DNA of 64,000 nt. It comes from Plantactinospora sp. BC1 (GTDB lineage: Bacteria; Actinomycetota; Actinomycetes; Mycobacteriales; Micromonosporaceae). The stretch covers positions 558,001 through 622,000 of the forward strand of contig NZ_CP028158.1 in NCBI RefSeq assembly GCF_003030345.1, written 5' to 3'. Numbering within the stretch: the first letter of the stretch is position 1; every line of letters starts with the position of its first letter. The position numbers and the translations under genes are program-made. The notes beneath the pieces were generated by a model. That model saw only the letters and a program-made list of their open reading frames with translations. It was not told the origin of the DNA and did not search any database. This document shows, piece after piece, positions 7,796 to 53,104 of this stretch.

Positions 7796-7984
7796 TCAGC
7801 GCCTGCGGGAGGCGGTTGCCCGGTCGGCGAGTCCGGCGACGTTGAGGTCACCGTCGATCACCCGTACGGCGAGCCACCCGACCAGGCCGGCGAGCACGGC
7901 CCCGGCCGCCGCTCCGAAGCCGGCGACGGCCCACACCGCCGCGATGAGGAAACCGGCGACGAAACCGAACTGTTGGCGTGACAT
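7796..7984 (-). CDS. Small membrane protein, DUF2273-like
   Basis: Protein of 62 residues, nearly all hydrophobic, with two closely spaced helices ([18 protein letters not shown] and [17 protein letters not shown]) and a short charged tail. Length and topology match DUF2273 proteins that accompany Asp23. ATG 7984 is preceded by GGGGAGGA. It is the first gene of the operon and lies 56 nt ahead of the Asp23 gene. Confidence 0.8.
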
Positions 7985-8139
7985 GGGGTTCCTCCCCGGC
8001 TGGTGCGGCGTGCGGCAGGTCGCAGTGGCTTACACATTTGGCGGAGAAGTCGAACCCGGCCGGGCGGAGGAGATGTGTGATCTGCGTCACTCCGGCTCTT
8101 GCGATCATGCTTGCCCGTGTCGCCGGTACCGTGGCCGGG

Positions 8140-8736
8140 GTGCGGCTCACCAAGTACACCCATGCCTGCGTACGGCTCGAACACGACGGCGCCGTCCTCG
8201 TCATCGACCCCGGCTCCTGGAGCGAACCGGCGGCGCTGCGCGGTGCCGACGCGGTACTCGTCACGCACGAGCACACCGACCACATCGACGTACTGCGGCT
8301 GGCCGGCCTCGGTGTCCCCGTCTACGCGCCGGCCGGGGCGAACATCCCCGACCTCGACGTGCACCCCGTCGCGCCCGGGCAGGAGTTCACCGCCGCCGGC
8401 CTCCGGGTACGCGCCTTCGGCGGCCGGCACGCCACCATCTACGGCGGGAAGCCGGACTGCCCGAACCTCGGGTACCTCGTCGAGGGGCGGGTCTACCACC
8501 CCGGCGACTCGGTGCACCGGCCGGAGGTGCCGGTGGAGACGCTGCTCGTGCCGGTGCAGGGATCGTGGCTGAAGACCGCCGAGGCGATCGACTTCGTCCG
8601 GGACGTCGCACCCGAGCGGGCGTACGGCATCCACGACGCGCAGGTCAACGAGCGGGGATTGCAGAGCGTGCACGGGTGGCTAGCCGAGGAGGCCGGCGAC
8701 TGCTACCGCTGGCTCACCCCGGGCCAGACGGCCTGA
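8140..8736 (+). CDS. MBL-fold metal-dependent hydrolase
   Basis: Metallo-beta-lactamase-fold protein of 198 residues with the metal motif THEHTDHID (about residues 40-48), further ligands in GDSVH and a terminal HDAQ. This small UlaG-like type is usually an uncharacterised hydrolase. GTG 8140 is chosen because it is preceded by TACCGT and exactly 7 nt, fitting a leaderless transcript, and homologues start with RLTKYTHAC; ATG 8107 is an alternative. The substrate is unknown. Confidence 0.88.
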   Translation: MRLTKYTHACVRLEHDGAVLVIDPGSWSEPAALRGADAVLVTHEHTDHIDVLRLAGLGVPVYAPAGANIPDLDVHPVAPGQEFTAAGLRVRAFGGRHATIYGGKPDCPNLGYLVEGRVYHPGDSVHRPEVPVETLLVPVQGSWLKTAEAIDFVRDVAPERAYGIHDAQVNERGLQSVHGWLAEEAGDCYRWLTPGQTA

Positions 8737-8768
8737 CGCATCCCCCGCCACTCCCTCGATGACGGCCA

Positions 8769-8799
8769 ACCGACGGCCGGTCGACGACCGCGCGTCGGT
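8769..8799. terminator. Hairpin between convergent genes
   Basis: ACCGACG (8769-8775) pairs with CGTCGGT (8793-8799), and within it GGTC pairs with GACC around a three-base loop. The element sits between the converging hydrolase and exporter genes and is a plausible bidirectional terminator. Confidence 0.5.
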
Positions 8800-8819
8800 G
8801 ATTCCGCACTCCGTAGCCG

Positions 8820-10346
8820 TCAACCGCTGCGGCCGGGGCCGGCCGGGCTGCCGGGCCGTTCGGTCCAACTGTCCACGATCGCCGCGACCAGCGCGACGAG
8901 TACGAATGCGATGGTGGCCAGCAGGGCGTCCCGGAAGGCCCGCGACCAGCCGCCGTGGGTGGCGGCCAGGGTGCTGAAGAAGATCGCGCCGACTCCGGCG
9001 ATGCCGGCGGCGGCGCCGATCCGCTGGCCGGTCTGCAACATCCCGGCCGCGCTGCCGGCCTGGCCGACCGGCACCTCGGAGAGCGTCAGGTTCTGGTTGG
9101 GGGTGATCACCAGGCCGCTGCCGAGCCCGGCGACGAGCAGCGGCAGGGCGGTCGCCAGCGGCGCGCCGTGCCCCGGCACGAAGTGCAGGGCCAGGATCAC
9201 CCCGCCGAGCCCGACCGCGACGGTGGCCAGGCCGATCGCGACCAGCGGCCGGCCGAACCGGTTGACGATCCGGCCGCCGACTCCCGCCGTGAGCGCCGAG
9301 CCGAGCGCGAACGGCGTGATCGCCAGGCCGGCCTCCAGCGCGCTGTACCGCAGGCCGCTCTGGAGATAGAGGGTGAAGAGGAAGAAGACCGCGACGAAGC
9401 CGCCGAAGTAGAGCAGCCCGATCAGGGTGCCGAGCGAGTACGACCGGAGCCGGAACAGCGCCAGGTCGAAGAGGGGTTCGCGGTGGCGCCGGTACCGCAG
9501 TTCCCAGCCGACGAAGCCGAGCAGCACCAGCAGACCACCGGGGATCAGCAGCCACTTGAGCGGCCCGTGCCACTGCTGCCGTTGCACCAGCGGCAGCAGC
9601 AACAGGACGACACCGGCGCCGAGCAGCAGTACGCCGACCGGGTCGAGGCCCTTGCGGCTGGCCCGGCGCCCGGGACCGGTCGGCAGCAGCCGCCAGGCGA
9701 AGAGGATCGTGGCGATGCCGACCGGCACGTTGACGAAGAAGACCAGTCGCCAGCCGAGGTGCTGGCCGCCGAGTTCGATCAGGGCGCCGCCGAGCAGCGG
9801 GCCGACGGCGGTGGAGATGCCGATGGTGGCGCCGAGCATCCCGAACGGGCGACCCCGGTCCGCACCCCGGTAGAGCTGCTGGATCAGCCCGATCACCTGC
9901 GGGTTCACCAGTCCGGCCGCCGCGCCCTGGAGCAGCCGGGCACCGATCAGCCAGGCCGGCGACTCGGCCAGCCCGGCCGCCGCACTGGTCAGGGTGAACA
10001 GCGCGAGGCCGAGCATGAAGACGTTGCGTCGGCCCCGGATGTCGCCGAACCGGCCGGCGGGTACCAGCATCAGCCCGAAGGTCAGCGCATACCCGGAGAG
10101 GATCCATTGGAGATCGCTCGGGTCGGCGTGGATGGCCTGGTCGATCGAGGGGATCGCGACGTTCACGATGCTGACGTCGAGCAGCGTCATGAACGCGGCG
10201 ACCAGTCCGATGGTCAGGATCTGCCTGCGCCGCCGGGCGGCGGTCCGCTCGTCGAGCCCGGCCAGTGGATCCGGTTCCGGTTCGTCCGGGCCGCCCGGCC
10301 CGGATCGACCGGCACGACCCGGTGGATTGCCTTCTGCCGCGCTCAA
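8820..10346 (-). CDS. MFS transporter, DHA2 (EmrB/QacA) family
   Basis: Proton-driven multidrug exporter of 508 residues with about 14 hydrophobic segments. The family motifs are present: LDVSIVNVAIPSI in helix 1, WILSGYAL in helix 2, GRFGDIRGRRN after it, and the GxxxGPxxGG motif of helix 5 (ISTAVGPLLGGAL). The first 40 residues are a charged, Pro/Gly-rich leader. TTG 10346 is used with GAGG 6 nt upstream. It probably expels hydrophobic drugs or an endogenous metabolite. No regulator is directly attached; the next gene upstream is a small winged-helix-like protein. Confidence 0.92.
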   Translation of the reverse strand: MSAAEGNPPGRAGRSGPGGPDEPEPDPLAGLDERTAARRRRQILTIGLVAAFMTLLDVSIVNVAIPSIDQAIHADPSDLQWILSGYALTFGLMLVPAGRFGDIRGRRNVFMLGLALFTLTSAAAGLAESPAWLIGARLLQGAAAGLVNPQVIGLIQQLYRGADRGRPFGMLGATIGISTAVGPLLGGALIELGGQHLGWRLVFFVNVPVGIATILFAWRLLPTGPGRRASRKGLDPVGVLLLGAGVVLLLLPLVQRQQWHGPLKWLLIPGGLLVLLGFVGWELRYRRHREPLFDLALFRLRSYSLGTLIGLLYFGGFVAVFFLFTLYLQSGLRYSALEAGLAITPFALGSALTAGVGGRIVNRFGRPLVAIGLATVAVGLGGVILALHFVPGHGAPLATALPLLVAGLGSGLVITPNQNLTLSEVPVGQAGSAAGMLQTGQRIGAAAGIAGVGAIFFSTLAATHGGWSRAFRDALLATIAFVLVALVAAIVDSWTERPGSPAGPGRSG

Positions 10347-45465: not shown

Positions 45466-46314
45466 TCAGGGCAGTTCGAGTGGTTCGGGTGCGTGCGGTG
45501 CCGGGAAGGCGAGGTCGAGTTCGGCGAGGTCCTCTTCGCCGAGGATCAGCTCCATCGCTGCCCGGTTCTCCCGGACGTGCTTCGGACTGCTCGCCTCGGT
45601 CACCGTGCAGACCCCGTCCTGACCGAGCAGCCAGGCCAGCGCCACCTGCCCGGGAGTCGCGCCGTGCCGCCGTGCCACCCGGGCCAGTACCGGGTGCCCG
45701 AGCATCGGCTCCCGCTCCGGTGGTGGGTACGCCATCACCGGCAGGCCGGCGGCGCGACAGCGGGGCAGCAGATCCCGCTCGACGTCCCGCCGGACGAGGT
45801 CGTACGGGATCTGGTCGATCTCCACTGCGGTACCGCCCGGGATGGCGGCCAGTTCCACCACGTCCGGTACGTCGAAGTCGCGTACGCCCCAGTGCCGGAT
45901 CAGGCCCTGGGTGATGAGGCTGGTGAACGCCTCGACCGTCTCCGGCAGCGGCGCGTCGCCCCGCTGGTGCAGCAGGTACAGGTCGATCCGGTCGGTGCCG
46001 AGCCGCTCCAGGCTGCGGGCGCAGGCGTCGGCGGTCCCGGTGAGCCCCGCGTGCTCGGCGGAGACCTTGCTGACCAGGAAGACTTCCTCGCGCCGGTCGC
46101 CGAGCGCCTCCCGGACCAGTTCCTCCGCGCGGCCGTCGGCGTACGCCTCGGCGGTGTCGATCAGGGTGAGGCCGGCGTCCACCCCGGCGCGGAGGGCGGC
46201 GATCTCGTCGTCGCGCCGCCGTGGGTCCTCCGCCATGCCCCGGGTGCTCTGACCGAACGCCGGGATCGCCTCGCCGGAGGGGAGTGTCACCGTCGGGATG
46301 CTCCGATCCGCCAT
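45466..46314 (-). CDS. Aldo/keto reductase
   Basis: TIM-barrel NADPH reductase of 282 residues. The catalytic tetrad is present: Asp and Tyr in DTAEAYADG, Lys in FLVSKVS and His in DLYLLHQRG. The coenzyme region near the C-terminus has VTEASSPKHVRENRAAMELIL. ATG 46314 follows AGGAGG. It is a monocistronic carbonyl reductase, possibly for aldehyde detoxification; the substrate is open. Confidence 0.9.
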   Translation of the reverse strand: MADRSIPTVTLPSGEAIPAFGQSTRGMAEDPRRRDDEIAALRAGVDAGLTLIDTAEAYADGRAEELVREALGDRREEVFLVSKVSAEHAGLTGTADACARSLERLGTDRIDLYLLHQRGDAPLPETVEAFTSLITQGLIRHWGVRDFDVPDVVELAAIPGGTAVEIDQIPYDLVRRDVERDLLPRCRAAGLPVMAYPPPEREPMLGHPVLARVARRHGATPGQVALAWLLGQDGVCTVTEASSPKHVRENRAAMELILGEEDLAELDLAFPAPHAPEPLELP

Positions 46315-46487
46315 GCCTCCGCTCCCTCCTGACCAGGCCGTATTCGGCTGCCCGCCGGTGCGCGCCTTCCCCCGGCCGTGCACGGCAAACCGCGCTCGCA
46401 GGGCGGTGGACGGGGGAGGCGAGGGCCGGGCCATCGCACCGGTAGCCTCTGGCCACACCGGTCCTCGATGTAGATCTAGTCGATGCG

Positions 46488-46510
46488 TATACTTGCCTGA
46501 CTGCAAGTAT
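46488..46510. promoter_or_regulatory. Inverted repeat over a -10 box upstream of the STAS gene
   Basis: ATACTTGC at 46489-46496 and GCAAGTAT at 46503-46510 are exact reverse complements around CTGACT. The left arm overlaps TATACT (46488-46493), a good -10 hexamer for the STAS gene. A repressor bound here would block transcription. Confidence 0.6.
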
Positions 46511-46536
46511 TGGCTGTTGAGCGTACGGAGGCGGGT

Positions 46537-46881
46537 GTGGTTTTCTCCGTCAGGCATGTGGTGCACTCGAAGCTGGTGCGCCTCCACCTGGGGGGTGAAC
46601 TGGACATAACCACCGCGCCGAGGCTCAGCGCGGAGATCGACCAGTTGGTCGACGACGGGCACCGCCGCCTGCTCGTCGACCTCGCGGAACTCACCTTCTG
46701 CGACTCCAGTGGTCTGGCGGCGTTCGTCCGGGGAGACGACCGGGCAGGTGCCCGGGGCGGCTGGCTCCGGCTGACCGGTGCCACGGGGCGCGTCGAGCGG
46801 GTATTGCGGATCAGTGGCCTGGACGACTTGCTCCGTTATGACCAGGAACAGCATGACCCGGCCGCATTGCGCGACCGTTGA
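46537..46881 (+). CDS. STAS-domain anti-sigma factor antagonist
   Basis: Single STAS domain of 114 residues like SpoIIAA/RsbV. It has VRLHLGGELDITTAPRLSAEIDQLV, the strand LLVDLAEL, and the phosphorylatable serine region FCDSSGLAAFVR near residue 55. Dephosphorylated antagonists bind an anti-sigma kinase and free a sigma factor. GTG 46537 follows GGAG at 6 nt; TTG 46510 is a longer alternative. No kinase is adjacent, but a single-domain response regulator follows. Confidence 0.88.
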   Translation: MVFSVRHVVHSKLVRLHLGGELDITTAPRLSAEIDQLVDDGHRRLLVDLAELTFCDSSGLAAFVRGDDRAGARGGWLRLTGATGRVERVLRISGLDDLLRYDQEQHDPAALRDR

Positions 46882-46994: not shown

Positions 46995-47441
46995 GTGGAC
47001 GCAGCCGAGTCGAACCCCGTACGCATTCTGGTCGTCGACGACGACCCGGGCGACGTCTTGATGATCGAGGAGGCGCTGGCCAACTCGGAGGTACCCAAGT
47101 CGATCGACGTGGTCAGCGACGGCCAGGAGGCGATGGAGTTCCTGCACCAGGAGGGGCGGCACCGGGACGCGCCCCGGCCGGACATGATCCTGCTGGACCT
47201 GAACATGCCCCGGATGGACGGTCGGCAGGTGCTCAACAAGGTCAAGAGCGACGACAACCTGCGGACGATCCCGATCGTCGTCCTGACCACGTCCAACGCC
47301 GACACCGACATCCTCGGCAGCTACAACCTGCGGGCCAACGCGTACGTCACCAAGCCGATCGACCTCGACGACTTCAACGACGTCATCCGGCGGATCGACG
47401 AGTTCTTCGGGCAGATCGTGGTGCTGCCGAAACACCGCTGA
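46995..47441 (+). CDS. Single-domain response regulator, Rcp1-like
   Basis: CheY-like receiver of 148 residues with no output domain. The acidic triplet DDD, phospho-acceptor Asp68 in MILLDLNMPRMDG, Thr in VLTTSN and Lys in YVTKPIDL are all present. The long loop EFLHQEGRHRDAPRPDM is the mark of Rcp1-type receivers paired with phytochrome-like histidine kinases. GTG 46995 follows a TAGAAT hexamer at 46964-46969. No kinase is present nearby, so its partner is elsewhere. Confidence 0.9.
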   Translation: MDAAESNPVRILVVDDDPGDVLMIEEALANSEVPKSIDVVSDGQEAMEFLHQEGRHRDAPRPDMILLDLNMPRMDGRQVLNKVKSDDNLRTIPIVVLTTSNADTDILGSYNLRANAYVTKPIDLDDFNDVIRRIDEFFGQIVVLPKHR

Positions 47442-47604: not shown

Positions 47605-48270
47605 TTGAACGGGGCAACGGCATACCTGGTGGCGGCGGCGGGTCTGCTGATCGCGGCGGCGGGCGTACTGGTGGCGGTGGTCGCGCTGCGTACCGCCCGG
47701 AAGCGGGCCGCCCGACCGGCCGGAACACCGGTACGCGATCCGTTCCGGAGCGTCGACGACGACGCCGACGCGCTGCGCGGCGATCCGCGTACCCTCAAGC
47801 CCGGTGACCTGGTGGAGATCCGGCACACCTCCTACGGGGTTCGCGGCACCCTCCGGTTCCGGGAGGGCGCCTGGGGCTGGGCGGAGCACCTGCTCGACGA
47901 CGCGCACGGCAGCAAGGTCTGGCTCTCGGTCGAGGAGGACCCGGACCTGGAACTGGTGCTCTGGACCGCGCTGCCGGACGTCGACGTCACCCCGGGCCCG
48001 GCCGAGCTGGAGGTCGCCGGCCGGCGCTACCGGCGGGACGAGTCGGGGCGGGCCACCTTCACCTCGGCGGGCAGCACCGGACTCGACCCGACCGGCACGG
48101 TCCGCTACCACGACTACGTCGCCGCCGACGGCTCCCCGCTCTCCTTCGAGGCGTACGGCGACAGCGAGCGCTGGGAGGTCGGCACCGGTGAACGGCTGCA
48201 CCGGGCCGAGGTGCTGATCTATCCACAGGCGACGGGCGCCGACGACCCGACGACGGGACGGATCGGCTGA
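47605..48270 (+). CDS. DUF4178 protein with N-terminal membrane helix
   Basis: Protein of 221 residues. One hydrophobic helix (about 6-28) anchors it; the soluble domain has LKPGDLVEIRHTSYGVRGTLRFREGAWGWAEHLL, EDPDLELVLW and YHDYVAADGSPLSFEAYGD, matching DUF4178. TTG 47605 is chosen because GAGGAG lies 8 nt upstream; the more upstream ATG 47536 has no ribosome-binding site. It is the first gene of the six-gene operon ending with an aminopropyltransferase. Confidence 0.85.
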   Translation: MNGATAYLVAAAGLLIAAAGVLVAVVALRTARKRAARPAGTPVRDPFRSVDDDADALRGDPRTLKPGDLVEIRHTSYGVRGTLRFREGAWGWAEHLLDDAHGSKVWLSVEEDPDLELVLWTALPDVDVTPGPAELEVAGRRYRRDESGRATFTSAGSTGLDPTGTVRYHDYVAADGSPLSFEAYGDSERWEVGTGERLHRAEVLIYPQATGADDPTTGRIG

Positions 48271-48273
48271 GCG

Positions 48274-48807
48274 ATGCTGGTCACCCTGCACACCGCGTAC
48301 GAGGACACCACCGCCGCCGAGCTGAGCCACGCGCTGGACACCCCGGAACAACCCGCGCTCCATCTGCTCGACCTCGGTCTGGCACACCTGGGCCGGCCCG
48401 GCACCCGGCTCCAGCTCCGGCTGCTCGGCGCCTCCCACCAGGTGGTGCTGGAAGGTCCCGCTGGCAACCTGATCGAGACGGTGGCCTGCCTGCCCGGTCG
48501 ACGCCCCGAACTGCCGGCGACGCTGGCCGACCCGGCCACCGGCTACCGGTTCACCGCCCGGGTGCGGCGGCTGGCGGCGGCGGAGATGTCGGCCCGGGCG
48601 GCCCGGCTGCGCCGCGATCTCGCCGACGACCCGTACGCCCTGGTCGGGGTCTTTCCCGGCGGCCCGGACGCGATCACGGCGCTGCGGGTGGCGCGCCGGG
48701 CGGACCCGGGCGGTGACGGGACCGGCGGGATCGGTTGGCGCACCTGGCACGCGTACCCGCAGAGCGGGGAACTGGTCGAGACGGAAACGGTGGTGACGGC
48801 GGTATGA
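48274..48807 (+). CDS. DUF2617 family protein
   Basis: Soluble protein of 177 residues beginning MLVTLHTAYEDTTAAELSHAL, with LGASHQVVLEG and TVACLPGRRPELP strands, and ending GIGWRTWHAYPQSGELVETET. The pattern matches DUF2617, an uncharacterised actinobacterial family. It starts 3 nt after the preceding stop and overlaps the next gene by 4 nt, so it is fully embedded in the operon. Confidence 0.85.
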   Translation: MLVTLHTAYEDTTAAELSHALDTPEQPALHLLDLGLAHLGRPGTRLQLRLLGASHQVVLEGPAGNLIETVACLPGRRPELPATLADPATGYRFTARVRRLAAAEMSARAARLRRDLADDPYALVGVFPGGPDAITALRVARRADPGGDGTGGIGWRTWHAYPQSGELVETETVVTAV

Positions 48808-49229
48808 CGTACCGCAGGTGGTTCCTGGTCGGTGGCGCGTTCGCCCTGGTGGGCGCCCTGGTCGCCGGCTTCGCCATCTTCTACGGCAACTTCTCCCCGC
48901 GCGGCTACGTGCAGGACCGGTACGCGCGGGCGGCGGCCCAGGACATCGGCCGGGACGCGACCGCGTACCGCTCGGACAAGTCGCCGAGCGTCGTCGCCGA
49001 CGAGATCACCGGGGCGTGGCGGCCGGCCGACCGGTACGTCGACGCCAGCGGCGTCTACCTGCGCTACGACGAGGACTCGGTGGTGATCCTGCCGCTGGCC
49101 GGCGGCTCGCTGATCCTGCTGGAGCGCATGGTCACCGCCTATCCCCGCTACTCCAGCACGGTCGGCAACGCCTGGGGCTGGGGGCGCGGCAGTTCGGTCC
49201 GGGGCGGCGGTCCCGGTGCCGGCAAGTGA
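48804..49229 (+). CDS. DUF4247 protein, membrane-anchored
   Basis: Protein of 141 residues with an N-terminal helix (about 5-29) that anchors or exports it. The extracytoplasmic part has PRGYVQDRYARAAAQDIGRDATAYRSD, RYVDASGVYLRYDEDSVVILPL and a Gly-rich tail. It fits DUF4247. ATG 48804 overlaps the previous stop. Its role is unknown; context suggests an envelope complex with the DUF350 protein. Confidence 0.85.
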   Translation: MTYRRWFLVGGAFALVGALVAGFAIFYGNFSPRGYVQDRYARAAAQDIGRDATAYRSDKSPSVVADEITGAWRPADRYVDASGVYLRYDEDSVVILPLAGGSLILLERMVTAYPRYSSTVGNAWGWGRGSSVRGGGPGAGK

Positions 49230-49307
49230 CCCCTCCGGCCTCCGCCCCGACCCACCACCACCCGCTTCGCCCACCACCACCCCCTCCTCATCCCTCCGGA
49301 GCCTGAT

Positions 49308-49733
49308 GTGTTGACGACCCTCGCCACCGACCTGCTGGCCACCCTCGCCTACGGGGTGGTCGGGCTCGTGCTGATGGCGGTCGGCTACGTGGTGGTCGAC
49401 ATGGCCACCCCGGGCCGGCTGCACGACCTGATCTGGGCCGACCGCAACCGCAACGCCGCGCTGCTGCTCGCCTCCAACCTGGCCGGGGTGGGCATCGTCG
49501 TCACCACCGCGATCGTGGTCAGCCACGACGACTTCGTCGAGGGGATCGTGAGCACCGCCGTGTACGGGCTGCTCGGTCTGCTGATCATGGGCGCGGCGTT
49601 CCTCCTGCTCGACCTGGCCACCCCGGGGCGGCTCGGCGAGATCCTGGTCGACCCGGAGCCGCACCCGGCGGTCTGGGTCTCGGCGGTGGTGCACCTGGCG
49701 ACCGGGGCCGTCATCGCGGCCGCGATCAGCTGA
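49308..49733 (+). CDS. DUF350 membrane protein
   Basis: Integral membrane protein of 141 residues with four helices. Two similar halves each contain a VVDMATPGRLHDLI or LLDLATPGRLGEIL motif, the internal duplication typical of DUF350. GTG 49308 follows GGAG at 6 nt. Families of this type occur in envelope-stress operons with PspA and polyamine-handling genes in other bacteria. Its stop overlaps the next start. Confidence 0.88.
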   Translation: MLTTLATDLLATLAYGVVGLVLMAVGYVVVDMATPGRLHDLIWADRNRNAALLLASNLAGVGIVVTTAIVVSHDDFVEGIVSTAVYGLLGLLIMGAAFLLLDLATPGRLGEILVDPEPHPAVWVSAVVHLATGAVIAAAIS

Positions 49734-50605
49734 TGGCCGCCGGCGGAAAGGGCGGCGGCGGGCAGGGCGCGAACGCGCGCCGGGCCGCCGCCGCCGGACG
49801 GGCGAAGGCGGCGGAGAAGACCGCCAGGCGACTCAAGATCACCCTGGTGGTCGCCGTGTGCCTGCTCGTCGCGGGAGGTCTCGTCGTCGCGGCGCTGAGC
49901 CCGGACGACGACAGCACGGTGGTGTCGCCGCCCGAGCCCGCCGAGCGGACCGACACCGTCACGCTGCTCCGGCAGGCGCACACGACACAGCAGATCTGTT
50001 ACGGCTGGCGGCTGCGCAGCGGCGGAGCGTCGTACGGCGCCGCACCGGTCAGCGTCGGCTCCAACCTCGGCGACACCGTCGCGGTGGACGGCGATCCGGC
50101 CCGCTGCCCCCGCTGGGTGGAGATCGACGCGTCGGTCTGGTACACCTCGGCGAGCAGCGAGTCGAACGACAGCGCCTCGTACCTGGTGACCAGCTCCTCC
50201 GATCTGGCCCACATCGACTTCGACCGGGGCCTGCGGCGACTCGGTGTCGACCCCGACCAGTTCGTCGACGATCCCGGCCGGGCGGTCTGCCAGGCCGCGA
50301 TCCTGCTGCCGCTGCTGGTCTCGGAGGCCGGCGCGGGCTCGGCGACCCGGGCGGCGCCGCCGTCGGCGGCCGGTGCGGCGCCCTCGCCGCTGCCCGATCC
50401 CGGTAACGACTTCTGGCGCGACCGCTGGGTCTTCCTGCTCGGCGCCGCCGGACTCTTCCTGCTCACCGCCCTCTTCCTGGCGATCGGCGTCTTCGAGCGC
50501 CGACACCAGAGCCCGCCGCCGGTCGAGTCCGCCGGCCTCGGCCTGAGCGCCGACAGCGTGGTCGCACCCGGGAACGGCCGCCGCGGCGGCGGTCGCGGGC
50601 GATGA
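49733..50605 (+). CDS. Two-helix membrane protein with extracytoplasmic domain
   Basis: Protein of 290 residues. A basic Gly/Ala-rich cytoplasmic head (about 1-35) is followed by helix one (36-56). An outside domain of about 160 residues has paired cysteines (ICYGW, ARCPRW, AVCQAA), and helix two (about 225-248) returns to a short tail. I recognise no family. It begins at the stop of the DUF350 gene and overlaps the aminopropyltransferase start, so it belongs to the same complex or pathway. Confidence 0.75.
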   Translation: MAAGGKGGGGQGANARRAAAAGRAKAAEKTARRLKITLVVAVCLLVAGGLVVAALSPDDDSTVVSPPEPAERTDTVTLLRQAHTTQQICYGWRLRSGGASYGAAPVSVGSNLGDTVAVDGDPARCPRWVEIDASVWYTSASSESNDSASYLVTSSSDLAHIDFDRGLRRLGVDPDQFVDDPGRAVCQAAILLPLLVSEAGAGSATRAAPPSAAGAAPSPLPDPGNDFWRDRWVFLLGAAGLFLLTALFLAIGVFERRHQSPPPVESAGLGLSADSVVAPGNGRRGGGRGR

Positions 50606-52218
50606 GCGCCACCCAGGCCGACCCGACCGCTGCGGCCACCTCCGCCGGCACCGCTCCCGGCCTGGCGGACCGGCCCCGGCGGCGGGCGGCCCGGGCGGCG
50701 GTGCTCGGCGCGGTCTTCGTCTGCGCCGCCTGCGGCCTGGTCTACGAACTGGCCCTGGTGGCGCTCGGCAGCTACCTGATCGGGGACACCGTCGGCCAGG
50801 CCTCGATCGTGCTCGGCGTGATGGTCTTCGCGATGGGCATCGGGGCGCTGCTGGCCAAGCCGTTCCAGCATCGGGCCGCCGCCGCGTTCGCGGTCGTCGA
50901 ACTCGCCCTCGCGCTCTTCGGCGGGCTCTCGGTGCTCGGCCTCTACGCCGCCTTCGCCTGGCTGGACCTCTACGCCCCGGCACTGGTCGGCACCGCCCTG
51001 CTGCTCGGGCTGCTGATCGGGGCGGAGATTCCGCTGCTGATGGTGCTCTTGCAGCGGATCCGGGAACAGTCCGCCGGCAGCGCCGTCGCCGACCTCTTCG
51101 CCGCCGACTACGTGGGCGCGCTGCTCGGCGGCCTCGCCTTCCCGTTCCTGCTGATGCCCTTCTTCGGCCAGCTCCGCGGGGTACTCGTGGTCGGGGTGGT
51201 GAACGCACTGGCCGGGCTGGCGCTGGTCGGCACCGTGTTCCGGCGTGAGCTGACCGCCCGGGTCCGGCTCGCGCTGACCGCCGGCACCGTCGCGGTCGGC
51301 CTGATCCTCGGGTACGCCTACCTGACCGCCGCCGACTTCGAGGTGACCGCCCGGCAGCAGCTCTTCCGGGACCCGGTGGTGCACGCCGAGCGCAGCAGGT
51401 ACCAGGAGATCGTGCTGACCCGGTCGGTGCCGCTGGTCTCGCAGGGCGTCACCGACCTGCGGCTCTATCTCAACGGGGACCTCCAGTTCAGCTCGGTCGA
51501 CGAATACCGCTACCACGAGGCGCTGGTGCATCCGGTGCTGGCCGGCGGCCGTCGTTCGGTACTGGTCCTCGGCGGCGGCGACGGGCTCGCCGTACGGGAA
51601 CTGCTGCGCTATCCCGACGTCGGCTCGGTGACCGTGGTGGAGCTGGATCCGGCGGTGGTCCGGCTGGCCCGGACCGAGCCGCAACTGCGGGCGCTGAACG
51701 GAGACGCCTTCGCCGACCCCCGGGTCCGGATCGTCAACACCGACGCCTTCGCCTGGCTGCGCGCCCAGCCGGACCGGTTCGACGCGGTGGTGGTGGACCT
51801 GCCGGACCCGGACGAGACGGCGACGGCGAAGCTCTACTCGGTGGAGTTCTACTCGCTGGTCCGGGCGGCGGTCGCCGAGCGGGGGCGGGTGGTGGTGCAG
51901 GCGGGTTCACCGTACTTCGCGCCCCGCTCGTACTGGTGCGTGGCGGCGTCGCTGCGGTCGGCCGGGTTCGCCACGGTCCCGTACCACGTCGACGTGCCGT
52001 CCTTCGGCGACTGGGGGTTCCTGCTCGCCGCCCCGGGGCCGACGGCTCCGGCGCTGGGGCTGCCGGCCGACGTGCCCCCGTTGCGCTATCTGGACTCGGG
52101 GACGCTGCGGGCCGCGATGAGCTTCCCGCCGGACCGGCACCGGTTGGAGTTGCCGCCCTCCACCCTGCTGCACCCACGGGTGCTGGAGTACGCCCGCGCG
52201 GAGTGGCGCCGCTACTGA
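50602..52218 (+). CDS. Membrane polyamine aminopropyltransferase (spermidine synthase family)
   Basis: Protein of 538 residues. The amino half has about seven transmembrane helices; the soluble half (about 255-538) is the spermidine-synthase fold. It has QEIVLTRS, LYLNGDLQFSSVDEYRYHEALVHP, the nucleotide motif VLVLGGGDGLAVREL, VVELDPAVV and VVDLPDPDE. The family moves an aminopropyl group from decarboxylated SAM to an amine. The membrane half is a feature of one actinobacterial subgroup whose substrate is not established. ATG 50602 overlaps the previous stop. Confidence 0.88.
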   Translation: MSATQADPTAAATSAGTAPGLADRPRRRAARAAVLGAVFVCAACGLVYELALVALGSYLIGDTVGQASIVLGVMVFAMGIGALLAKPFQHRAAAAFAVVELALALFGGLSVLGLYAAFAWLDLYAPALVGTALLLGLLIGAEIPLLMVLLQRIREQSAGSAVADLFAADYVGALLGGLAFPFLLMPFFGQLRGVLVVGVVNALAGLALVGTVFRRELTARVRLALTAGTVAVGLILGYAYLTAADFEVTARQQLFRDPVVHAERSRYQEIVLTRSVPLVSQGVTDLRLYLNGDLQFSSVDEYRYHEALVHPVLAGGRRSVLVLGGGDGLAVRELLRYPDVGSVTVVELDPAVVRLARTEPQLRALNGDAFADPRVRIVNTDAFAWLRAQPDRFDAVVVDLPDPDETATAKLYSVEFYSLVRAAVAERGRVVVQAGSPYFAPRSYWCVAASLRSAGFATVPYHVDVPSFGDWGFLLAAPGPTAPALGLPADVPPLRYLDSGTLRAAMSFPPDRHRLELPPSTLLHPRVLEYARAEWRRY

Positions 52219-52237: not shown

Positions 52238-53104
52238 TCAGACCAGGGCGCCGACCACCGTGCCGGCCCGCCCCTCGTGCTGGGCGTACGCGTCGGGGAA
52301 GGCGGAGATCTGTACCGCCTGCGCGGCGCCGGTCACGCTCATCTCCTGCCAGCCGGGGATCTGGAGCAGGGCGGCGTAGAACCGCTCCGCCGCGTACGCC
52401 GGGCGCATCAGGTCGGCGACGGTACCCCAGCCGGAGCTGGGTCGCTGCTGGAAGAGCCCGACCGAGTCGTGGTCGTAGCCGACGCCCTGGTTCGGCAGGT
52501 TCAGCGACTCCGGCAGTACGCCGCTGGCCAGGTTGTAGAGGTTGCTCTCCTGCATGGCGGTGGCGATCGCGACCACCAGTCCCCGGCGCGGGATGTCCAT
52601 CTTCACGCCCACCTGGACGATGGTGTGCGCGTTGTCCATCTGCGCCTGGGTGAGCCCGGCGACCGGGGTCGGTCGACTCGGCTTCTTGCTGACCCGGGCG
52701 ACCTTGGTCCGGGCCATCGTCGGTGTGGCGGTCGGCGTGGCCGAGGGGGTGCTGCTCGGCGTGGCGGTCGGGGTCGGCGCGGGGGCTCGTTCGGTGGCCC
52801 GGGAGGCGGGCTGGCGTTCGGCGCTGGCGGCGCGCTCGGCGAGCAGGTTGGCCGGGGCCGGGTCGGCCGGGGCGGTCGCGGTCTGCGACTCGACGAAGAC
52901 CACGGCGCCGAGGCAGCAGGCCAGCGCGGCGACCGAGCCGACCCGGAACGGGCCCGACGAGAGCAGCGCCCGGGTCCGACGCAGCCGGCGCGGCGCCGCG
53001 GCCCGGTGGCGACCGGTTACCTGGTCGGTGGAGCCGGTATCAGCCGAACGGCCAGCCTGCGCTCCGTTGTCCTGTCCACGATCAATCTGTTCCCTGTGAG
53101 GCAC
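52238..53104 (-). CDS. Exported lytic-transglycosylase-like cell-wall protein
   Basis: Protein of 288 residues. A cytoplasmic basic tail precedes a transmembrane segment (about 57-75), a Pro/Thr-rich wall-spanning linker (TPTATPSSTPSATPTATPT), then a helical domain. The domain has AIATAMQESNLYNL, GYDHDSVGLFQQRPSSGWG and AAERFYAALLQIPGW, typical of transglycosylase-like enzymes of Micromonosporaceae. The Glu in MQESN is the likely catalytic acid. GTG 53104 is preceded by TAACCT and 6 nt on its strand, consistent with a leaderless start. It probably cuts or binds peptidoglycan. Confidence 0.82.
   Translation of the reverse strand: MPHREQIDRGQDNGAQAGRSADTGSTDQVTGRHRAAAPRRLRRTRALLSSGPFRVGSVAALACCLGAVVFVESQTATAPADPAPANLLAERAASAERQPASRATERAPAPTPTATPSSTPSATPTATPTMARTKVARVSKKPSRPTPVAGLTQAQMDNAHTIVQVGVKMDIPRRGLVVAIATAMQESNLYNLASGVLPESLNLPNQGVGYDHDSVGLFQQRPSSGWGTVADLMRPAYAAERFYAALLQIPGWQEMSVTGAAQAVQISAFPDAYAQHEGRAGTVVGALV

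Follow-up and report, generated by a model that had tools for sequence, protein, structure and literature searches.

The window analysed here, the whole stretch of 64,000 nucleotides (nt) from Plantactinospora sp. BC1 (contig NZ_CP028158.1, positions 558,001 to 622,000), contains at 47605-52218 a plus-strand operon of six open reading frames (ORFs), all confirmed at the places claimed for them, in which four DUF proteins and one protein of no assigned family accompany a membrane aminopropyltransferase. The invariant lysine that ends one of these proteins, and the pattern in which another alternates with a decarboxylase of S-adenosylmethionine (AdoMet), suggest a system that would attach an aminopropyl group to an exported protein and supply its own donor. 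The genes and the motifs on which this proposal turns are the following.

47605..48270 (+): DUF4178 protein, 221 amino acids (aa), one N-terminal membrane segment by hydropathy, TTG start uncertain; PF13785, E 1.8e-36
48274..48807 (+): DUF2617 protein, 177 aa, soluble, candidate divergent AdoMet decarboxylase by displacement pattern and hhalign; PF10936, E 3.2e-49
48433..48438 (+): DUF2617 Ser54-His55, putative pyruvoyl-forming site, each conserved in 102/103 sequences
48676..48678 (+): DUF2617 Thr135, 103/103, aligned by hhalign to the invariant Thr of AdoMet decarboxylase
48748..48750 (+): DUF2617 His159 within T-x-H-x-Y-P, 103/103
48804..49229 (+): DUF4247 protein, 141 aa, N-terminal anchor by hydropathy, predicted exported, candidate acceptor; PF14042, E 3.1e-19
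49200..49226 (+): DUF4247 C-terminal tail RGGGPGAGK with invariant last lysine, by alignment and last-residue counts
49308..49733 (+): DUF350 membrane protein, 141 aa; PF03994, E 4.4e-28
49733..50605 (+): fifth protein, 290 aa, Cys-containing domain between two membrane segments; optional, in 33/80 loci
50602..52218 (+): membrane aminopropyltransferase, 538 aa, seven hydrophobic segments followed by a spermidine-synthase domain; NF002956, E 2.8e-205
51571..51585 (+): aminopropyltransferase GGGDG donor-binding motif, residues 324-328; D327 in 53/53 aligned rows
51796..51810 (+): aminopropyltransferase DLPDP catalytic motif, residues 399-403; D399 in 53/53 and D402 in 52/53 rows

The genes follow one another with a 3-nt gap, a 4-nt overlap, a 78-nt gap, a 1-nt overlap and a 4-nt overlap. 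The sequence-only reading of this DNA had named DUF4178, DUF2617, DUF4247, DUF350 and a spermidine-synthase-like enzyme around a two-helix unknown, and this survives closer inspection: Pfam and NCBIfam assign five of the six proteins above cut-off, and the fifth has two membrane segments and no family above cut-off in either collection. Hydropathy agrees with its count of membrane segments in five of the six proteins, DUF2617 being the one with none; its account of the spacing holds for the overlaps and for the gap of about 80 nt, but DUF4178 and DUF2617 are separated by a 3-nt gap. The basic stretch after the N-terminal membrane segment of the DUF4178 protein suggests that its domain is cytoplasmic.

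The enzyme encoded by the last gene matches the NF002956/PRK03612 model ('polyamine aminopropyltransferase') with 682.7 bits against a cut-off of 472 and the Pfam family Spermine_synth with E 3.9e-32, and its catalytic part can be aligned to spermidine synthases of solved structure (best E 1.9e-48). The roles of the key residues are those familiar from aminopropyltransferases in general, the Asp of GGGDG being the one that touches the donor amine in spermidine synthases; D300, E301, Y304, D327, D349, D381, D399, D402 and Q433 are all present in the window's enzyme. Over the 53 aligned rows, which leave unused a wrong ORF for L167 and a wrong start for L169, there is one exception at D402 and three at Q433, where His is found in the enzymes of three loci that pair DUF2617 with the enzyme and have no tailed partner. 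A haloarchaeal enzyme (L208) lacks five of the 12 aligned residues (D300, E301, E306, D402 and Q433) and W471 as well. The window's own genome holds a second, weak PF01564 match (G000:C1:3463362-3463691, 31.8 bits).

The gene row is no chance arrangement. When public genomes were scanned with the enzyme, 576 relatives appeared, the best 80 of which, all from Actinomycetota, were taken for comparison; DUF4247, DUF350 and the enzyme keep their order in 78 of these 80 loci, the other two being contig ends, so that the expectation of a conserved neighbourhood in the sequence-only reading is borne out. DUF4178 is present in 65 of the 80, DUF2617 in 58 and the fifth protein in 33. Conversely, all 23 loci fetched through an above-cut-off DUF2617 match (L030-L052) have the enzyme in the same gene row, and in one family, probably Streptomyces, DUF2617 and the enzyme often stand as a pair alone. 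The enzyme is matched in 28 of the 396 genomes of a phylum sample (one match partial), and its closest matches in named genomes, at 95 and 91 percent, are from Plantactinospora.

The suggestion that this is an undescribed system does not stand, because both the operon class and the present variant are already in print. Operons that combine PspA and a 7TM-spermine synthase with DUF350 and DUF4178 have been described, some mentioned with a polyamine oxidase, and a variant is named in which DUF4247 (CCP45395.1) and DUF2617 (CCP45394.1) replace a CesT/Tir-PspA dyad (Ravi et al., 2024, mSystems, PMC11237479). The co-occurrence with PspA that the sequence-only reading had mentioned is thus on record. 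The genes are the same as here: DUF350, DUF4178 and a membrane-fused spermine synthase lie in one operon, and of the two alternatives that complete the class it is the second, DUF4247 with DUF2617 in the position of the dyad, that is found. The passages concerned predict DUF2617 to be an enzymatic beta-sandwich with conserved His, Asp and Glu, and propose that polyamine levels, or the aminopropylation of other substrates, alter the membrane (PMC11237479). Those passages mention neither the tail of lysine nor an alternation between DUF2617 and AdoMet decarboxylase, and the word 'lysine' does not occur in the main text of that article; in a search of the literature at the level of titles and abstracts, with few subscription papers and no supplements, none of the papers listed concerned the tail or DUF2617 as a decarboxylase. 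Both features are, apparently, unreported.

What, then, could be the substrate of the enzyme? In an alignment of 20 DUF4247 proteins that includes the window's, every column varies except those of Gly135, Gly136, Gly138 and of Lys141, with which the protein ends. Lysine ends all 78 DUF4247 proteins of the best 80 loci, that of L039 and those of 11 of 11 further loci; in total, every one of the 110 DUF4247 reads has lysine as its last residue, preceded by a Gly-rich stretch (typical form RGGGPGxGK), several species having entered under two handles (e.g. G050 and G449), so that these totals are not independent counts. A general preference for basic ends was considered and rejected: among 540 background ORFs of the same 80 loci (long, GC3-rich, that is, with many G or C third codon positions, and not proven genes) six end in lysine and 104 in arginine. 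Lysine is not among the common last residues listed for the other five operon proteins. Export of the tail is predicted from the N-terminal membrane segment of DUF4247, replaced in some relatives by what looks like a lipoprotein signal; anchors and lipoprotein signals of the small partner proteins are judged by eye.

The tail is not tied to the DUF4247 body either, as ORFs without a DUF4247 match also carry it. At L152, a lipoprotein-like ORF between DUF2617 and the enzyme, with no Pfam match, ends in FRGGGSGSGK. Outside Actinomycetota, the ORF directly 5' of DUF350 or of the enzyme encodes a different, apparently anchored protein that again ends in lysine (L139-L142, L144 and L168-L170, L144 and L170 being one species): GGGPESGK in Ensifer, RGPSSGK in Alteromonas, RFRHGK in Gemmatirosa, GPSHK, GPSHK and GPTHK in three Novosphingobium and NSNRVK in two Tritonibacter strains. 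A lysine tail in every DUF350 operon can nevertheless be dismissed, since those with a GSP_synth ligase (PF03738, which matches none of the six proteins here) behave differently: the ORF whose end meets the start of the ligase gene encodes a Gly-rich tail ([RQ]GG[FL]..) and terminates in Gly or Ser in all nine loci with a ligase match, two of the nine ligases being confirmed by Pfam and seven assigned by similarity to those two. L185, examined as well, has no ligase match, and L173-L175, L177 and L187 lie outside this count; in L173-L175, from one family, probably Streptomyces, the ORFs listed around the DUF350 gene include no obvious enzyme or tailed partner. The pattern extends to Escherichia coli, where YjfM (..WGG) and YgiB (..MGG) end in Gly next to the genes of YjfC and YgiC, which RefSeq names peptide-spermidine ligases (reportedly after Pederick et al., 2023). 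A C-terminal carboxyl is what a ligase acts on, an amine what an aminopropyltransferase acts on, and each kind of tail end suits its enzyme. This match of tail end to enzyme type is the strongest reason for supposing the tail to be the substrate.

The yjfIJKLM-yjfC cluster of E. coli resembles the present operon in that it sets YjfL (DUF350) next to a polyamine enzyme and to an anchored partner whose C-terminal tail is rich in Gly; in both this cluster and ygiB-ygiC, however, the enzyme is an ATP-grasp ligase rather than an aminopropyltransferase and the tails end in GG rather than K, and ygiBC, unlike the operon here, has no DUF350 gene in the stretch covered. Membrane-fused spermidine synthases that come with AdoMet decarboxylase, cluster with DUF350 and are thought inactive on putrescine were reportedly described by Li et al. 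in 2019 (Biochem J). These are said to share with the present operon the membrane-fused aminopropyltransferase clustered with DUF350, whereas here a known AdoMet decarboxylase is missing and a specific protein acceptor is proposed. The formation of deoxyhypusine on eIF5A likewise places an aminoalkyl group on a lysine side chain, but with another enzyme, donor and protein, and on a lysine that is internal, not C-terminal.

The donor of an aminopropyltransferase is decarboxylated AdoMet, and its source is the other half of the puzzle. The sequence-only reading had noted that no decarboxylase accompanies the enzyme; this holds for PF02675, the AdoMet decarboxylase family, with no match in the whole genome, but needs amendment inasmuch as DUF2617 is a candidate for the role. 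As the genome has no PF02675 match, the doubt already voiced about ordinary spermidine synthesis appears justified. PF01536 has no match in this genome and none in the control genomes, and is thus uninformative. Among the 78 complete loci, 50 were tested for PF02675, namely all 20 without DUF2617 and 30 of the 58 with it: the family is present in 20/20 operon genomes that lack DUF2617 (E 1.7e-28 or better) and absent in 27/30 that have it (Fisher p 3.8e-11, not corrected for relatedness). A second set, overlapping in part with the other test sets, has PF02675 in both of its two genomes without DUF2617. The phylum does not simply lack the enzyme, PF02675 being matched in 21 of 149 genomes; among 14 control genomes, DUF2617 occurs in Corynebacterium glutamicum and Haloferax volcanii only and PF02675 in eight others. 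The enzyme tree, from which L090 is absent, shows two losses of DUF2617, one in Nocardia and one in Saccharopolyspora/Actinopolyspora, and PF02675 is found in every genome of both groups. Alteromonas, Novosphingobium and Ensifer, the loci outside Actinomycetota in which speD was looked for, have speD in or near the operon and no DUF2617 match there. All five haloarchaeal loci that were read have DUF2617 or a relative of it as the neighbour of a spermidine synthase, and a relative of this kind is present in 12 plasmid records.

Profile comparison shows a weak similarity of DUF2617 to AdoMet decarboxylase. Aligned by hhalign to AdoMet decarboxylase, DUF2617 without haloarchaeal members scores 25.0 (probability 10.5, E 0.0029) versus 12.9 to 21.0 for the five other operon families, and with five haloarchaeal sequences 33.0 (probability 54.6, E 1.2e-4), compared with a maximum of 17.7 in 200 column shuffles, which are a lenient null. 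A third run (probability 39.3, E 3.1e-4) places residues 108-169 on the AdoMet decarboxylase core, with Thr135 on its invariant Thr and T-x-H159-x-Y-P on the motif H-T-[YW]-P. The N-terminal half, LxLLGASH..E-x3-C, resembles LxLL[SA]ESH..D-x3-C of AdoMet decarboxylase around Ser54 and Cys72, by motif only; the residue before Ser54 is Ala in 98 of 103 sequences and Glu, as in AdoMet decarboxylase, in two haloarchaeal copies. Conservation over the 103 sequences is 102 for S54 and H55, 103 for E68, 98 for C72 and 103 for T135 and H159, the one sequence without Ser54 and His55 (L064) being probably a frame or start artefact, as its DUF2617 match is split. The last part of the predicted structure runs strand, helix, four strands (predicted local distance difference test score, pLDDT, 94.5), which is the order in AdoMet decarboxylase. 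The relevant passages of the literature on the human enzyme state that its pyruvoyl group derives from Ser68 and that Ser229 and His243 are needed for processing (PMC3975893), and those on the eukaryotic enzymes that they consist of two class 1b units joined together, the C-terminal one having lost self-cleavage (PMC10407285, PMC1282579). Set against the prokaryotic class 1b and the eukaryotic class 2, DUF2617 with its Ser54, Cys72, Thr135 and His159 would fit the two-half plan of class 2. On balance, we hold it somewhat more likely than not that DUF2617 is the source of the aminopropyl donor.

These findings could be accommodated if the operon were a protein-tailing system. DUF2617, as a divergent pyruvoyl AdoMet decarboxylase, would make decarboxylated AdoMet; the membrane enzyme would transfer the aminopropyl group onto the side-chain amine of the lysine that ends DUF4247; the anchored, exported protein would thus bear a polyamine-like tail at the cell surface; and DUF350, DUF4178 and the optional fifth protein would hold or regulate the complex. 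The earlier idea that the enzyme may modify an envelope component is thereby sharpened, with the lysine at the end of this operon's exported DUF4247 protein as the likely target. That this lysine is the acceptor seems to us an evenly balanced proposition, and the joint mechanism, tailing with a dedicated donor enzyme, falls slightly short of that. If true, it would explain why a 'spermidine synthase' is kept by Actinomycetota that have no known AdoMet decarboxylase, would give functions to DUF2617 (donor maker), DUF4247 (acceptor) and DUF350 (shared membrane partner), and would bring two chemistries, joining to a C-terminal carboxyl by a ligase and alkylation of the amine of a C-terminal lysine, under one theme, that of equipping a surface protein with a terminal polyamine. 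Still more tentatively, and with doubt outweighing confidence, aminopropylation of a C-terminal lysine might be a new modification of exported proteins in several phyla, with DUF2617 as a third class of AdoMet decarboxylase that replaces SpeD in most of the Actinomycetota with the operon that were covered and, to go by its neighbours, in haloarchaea.

Several observations weigh against this proposal, in which the tail and the alternation are observed and the chemistry is inferred. DUF2617 matches PF10936 alone and not PF02675, the hhalign probabilities span 10 to 55 percent, and searches found no convincing solved relative of DUF2617 (nor of DUF4247): the fold search gave only PsbP/LpqN/Mog1-like rows, best Z 5.2, AdoMet decarboxylase is not among the matches listed, and human spermine synthase (chain residues 5-81) at Z 3.9 decides nothing. 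As fold searches do not confirm the relationship and the family model is unmatched, we do not file DUF2617 as a member of PF02675. The alternation is imperfect, PF02675 being kept in three of the 30 DUF2617 genomes (L061, 2.2e-14; L107, 2.4e-22; L118, two near 1e-22), in one of 17 in the second set, in one of 17 DUF2617-bearing relatives and in one of seven DUF2617 genomes of a further set; only two losses are independent on the enzyme tree, and a sign test does not reach significance. Of the 20 genomes with speD, 14 have another SpeE-like match no more than about 1 kb away from it, so that speD may serve ordinary spermidine there; in the remaining six, all Nocardia, the operon enzyme is the sole PF01564 match. 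The enzyme also occurs without a recognisable tail: in Burkholderia (L143, L167), with no DUF350 match and no tailed partner recognised (a lysine-terminated ORF at L143 6298 and L167 5847 shows no anchor to the eye and is left out of the count); in haloarchaea; and in 11 pair loci of one family, probably Streptomyces, that have neither DUF350 nor DUF4247 (L046, L048, L050, L148, L154, L156, L157, L159, L161, L165, L166). Rhodovulum L171, with a partial enzyme gene, is a further exception. Finally, Lys/Arg counts, taken over 78 enzymes, speak for an inside N-terminus and seven membrane segments and would place the transferase domain outside, a side of the membrane on which the donor is not known to occur. 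The AlphaFold2 model, in which residues 158-212 run as one helix, does not separate segments 5 and 6. It is possible that the tail is modified before export.

One competing scenario is that the product of the enzyme is a free polyamine, built on a small amine with decarboxylated AdoMet from DUF2617 or from uptake, and that the lysine tail only docks DUF4247 to DUF350 or the enzyme. The active-site residues are indeed those of ordinary aminopropyltransferases, and the DUF2617-enzyme pairs work without any tailed protein; a docking motif, however, would not have to stop precisely at a C-terminal Lys in proteins unrelated to one another, nor switch to Gly or Ser where the enzyme is a ligase, and we regard this scenario as unlikely though by no means far-fetched. 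The scarcity of PF02675 in DUF2617 genomes would suit an enzyme whose substrate is AdoMet itself and which transfers a 3-amino-3-carboxypropyl group, as MccD of microcin C reportedly does, DUF2617 then decarboxylating the product or being accessory. Yet the GGGDG Asp, the contact of the donor amine in spermidine synthases, is kept in every aligned row, and related operons without DUF2617 come with speD, which renders such chemistry improbable. The PspA and chaperone-like genes of related operons, as given in the relevant parts of PMC11237479, bring to mind a scaffold of the PspA kind for envelope stress, in which the enzyme and DUF2617 would sense polyamines or AdoMet and nothing would be covalently modified; conserved catalytic residues, an invariant Lys tail and the alternation of DUF2617 with an enzyme, AdoMet decarboxylase, speak against it, and we consider this the least probable of the three. 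Tailing of the DUF4247 lysine is the reading that we prefer, and the sequence-only reading as a whole was partly right: on conservation, on doubtful spermidine synthesis and on the link with PspA, though not on novelty of the operon.

Several variants of these loci deserve mention. L160 retains the tail, and the only DUF350 match of its genome (G363) lies elsewhere, in the GSP_synth locus L183, for which reason one DUF350 may serve both loci. At L141 an annotated flavin adenine dinucleotide (FAD)-dependent oxidoreductase (7920-9536) follows the enzyme gene, and ORFs with a similar end are found 3' of the enzyme in L140 (8607-10172) and L143 (7717-9576); such an oxidoreductase could carry out a further step on the tail. 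Four haloarchaeal loci (L172, L208, L209, L211) have, besides synthase and DUF2617, an upstream ORF with a lipoprotein-like start, judged by eye, and a downstream protein of 313-317 aa. In four genomes (G437, G439, G451 and G453; L199, L203, L200 and L198) the AdoMet decarboxylase and the adjacent SpeE-like match fall in open frames of equal length, 405-416 aa, apparent SpeD-SpeE fusions.

Within the window, the operon is followed by a gene at 52238-53104 (-) with no Pfam match up to E 0.1, and a scan of viral contigs with the fifth protein gave no relatives. Upstream lie an aldo/keto reductase (45466-46854, -), a STAS-domain protein (46510-46881, +) and a single-domain response regulator (46995-47441, +). 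Two Micromonospora loci have a second DUF4178 gene 3' of the operon, at 11106-11663 in L062 and at 10437-11012 in L063.

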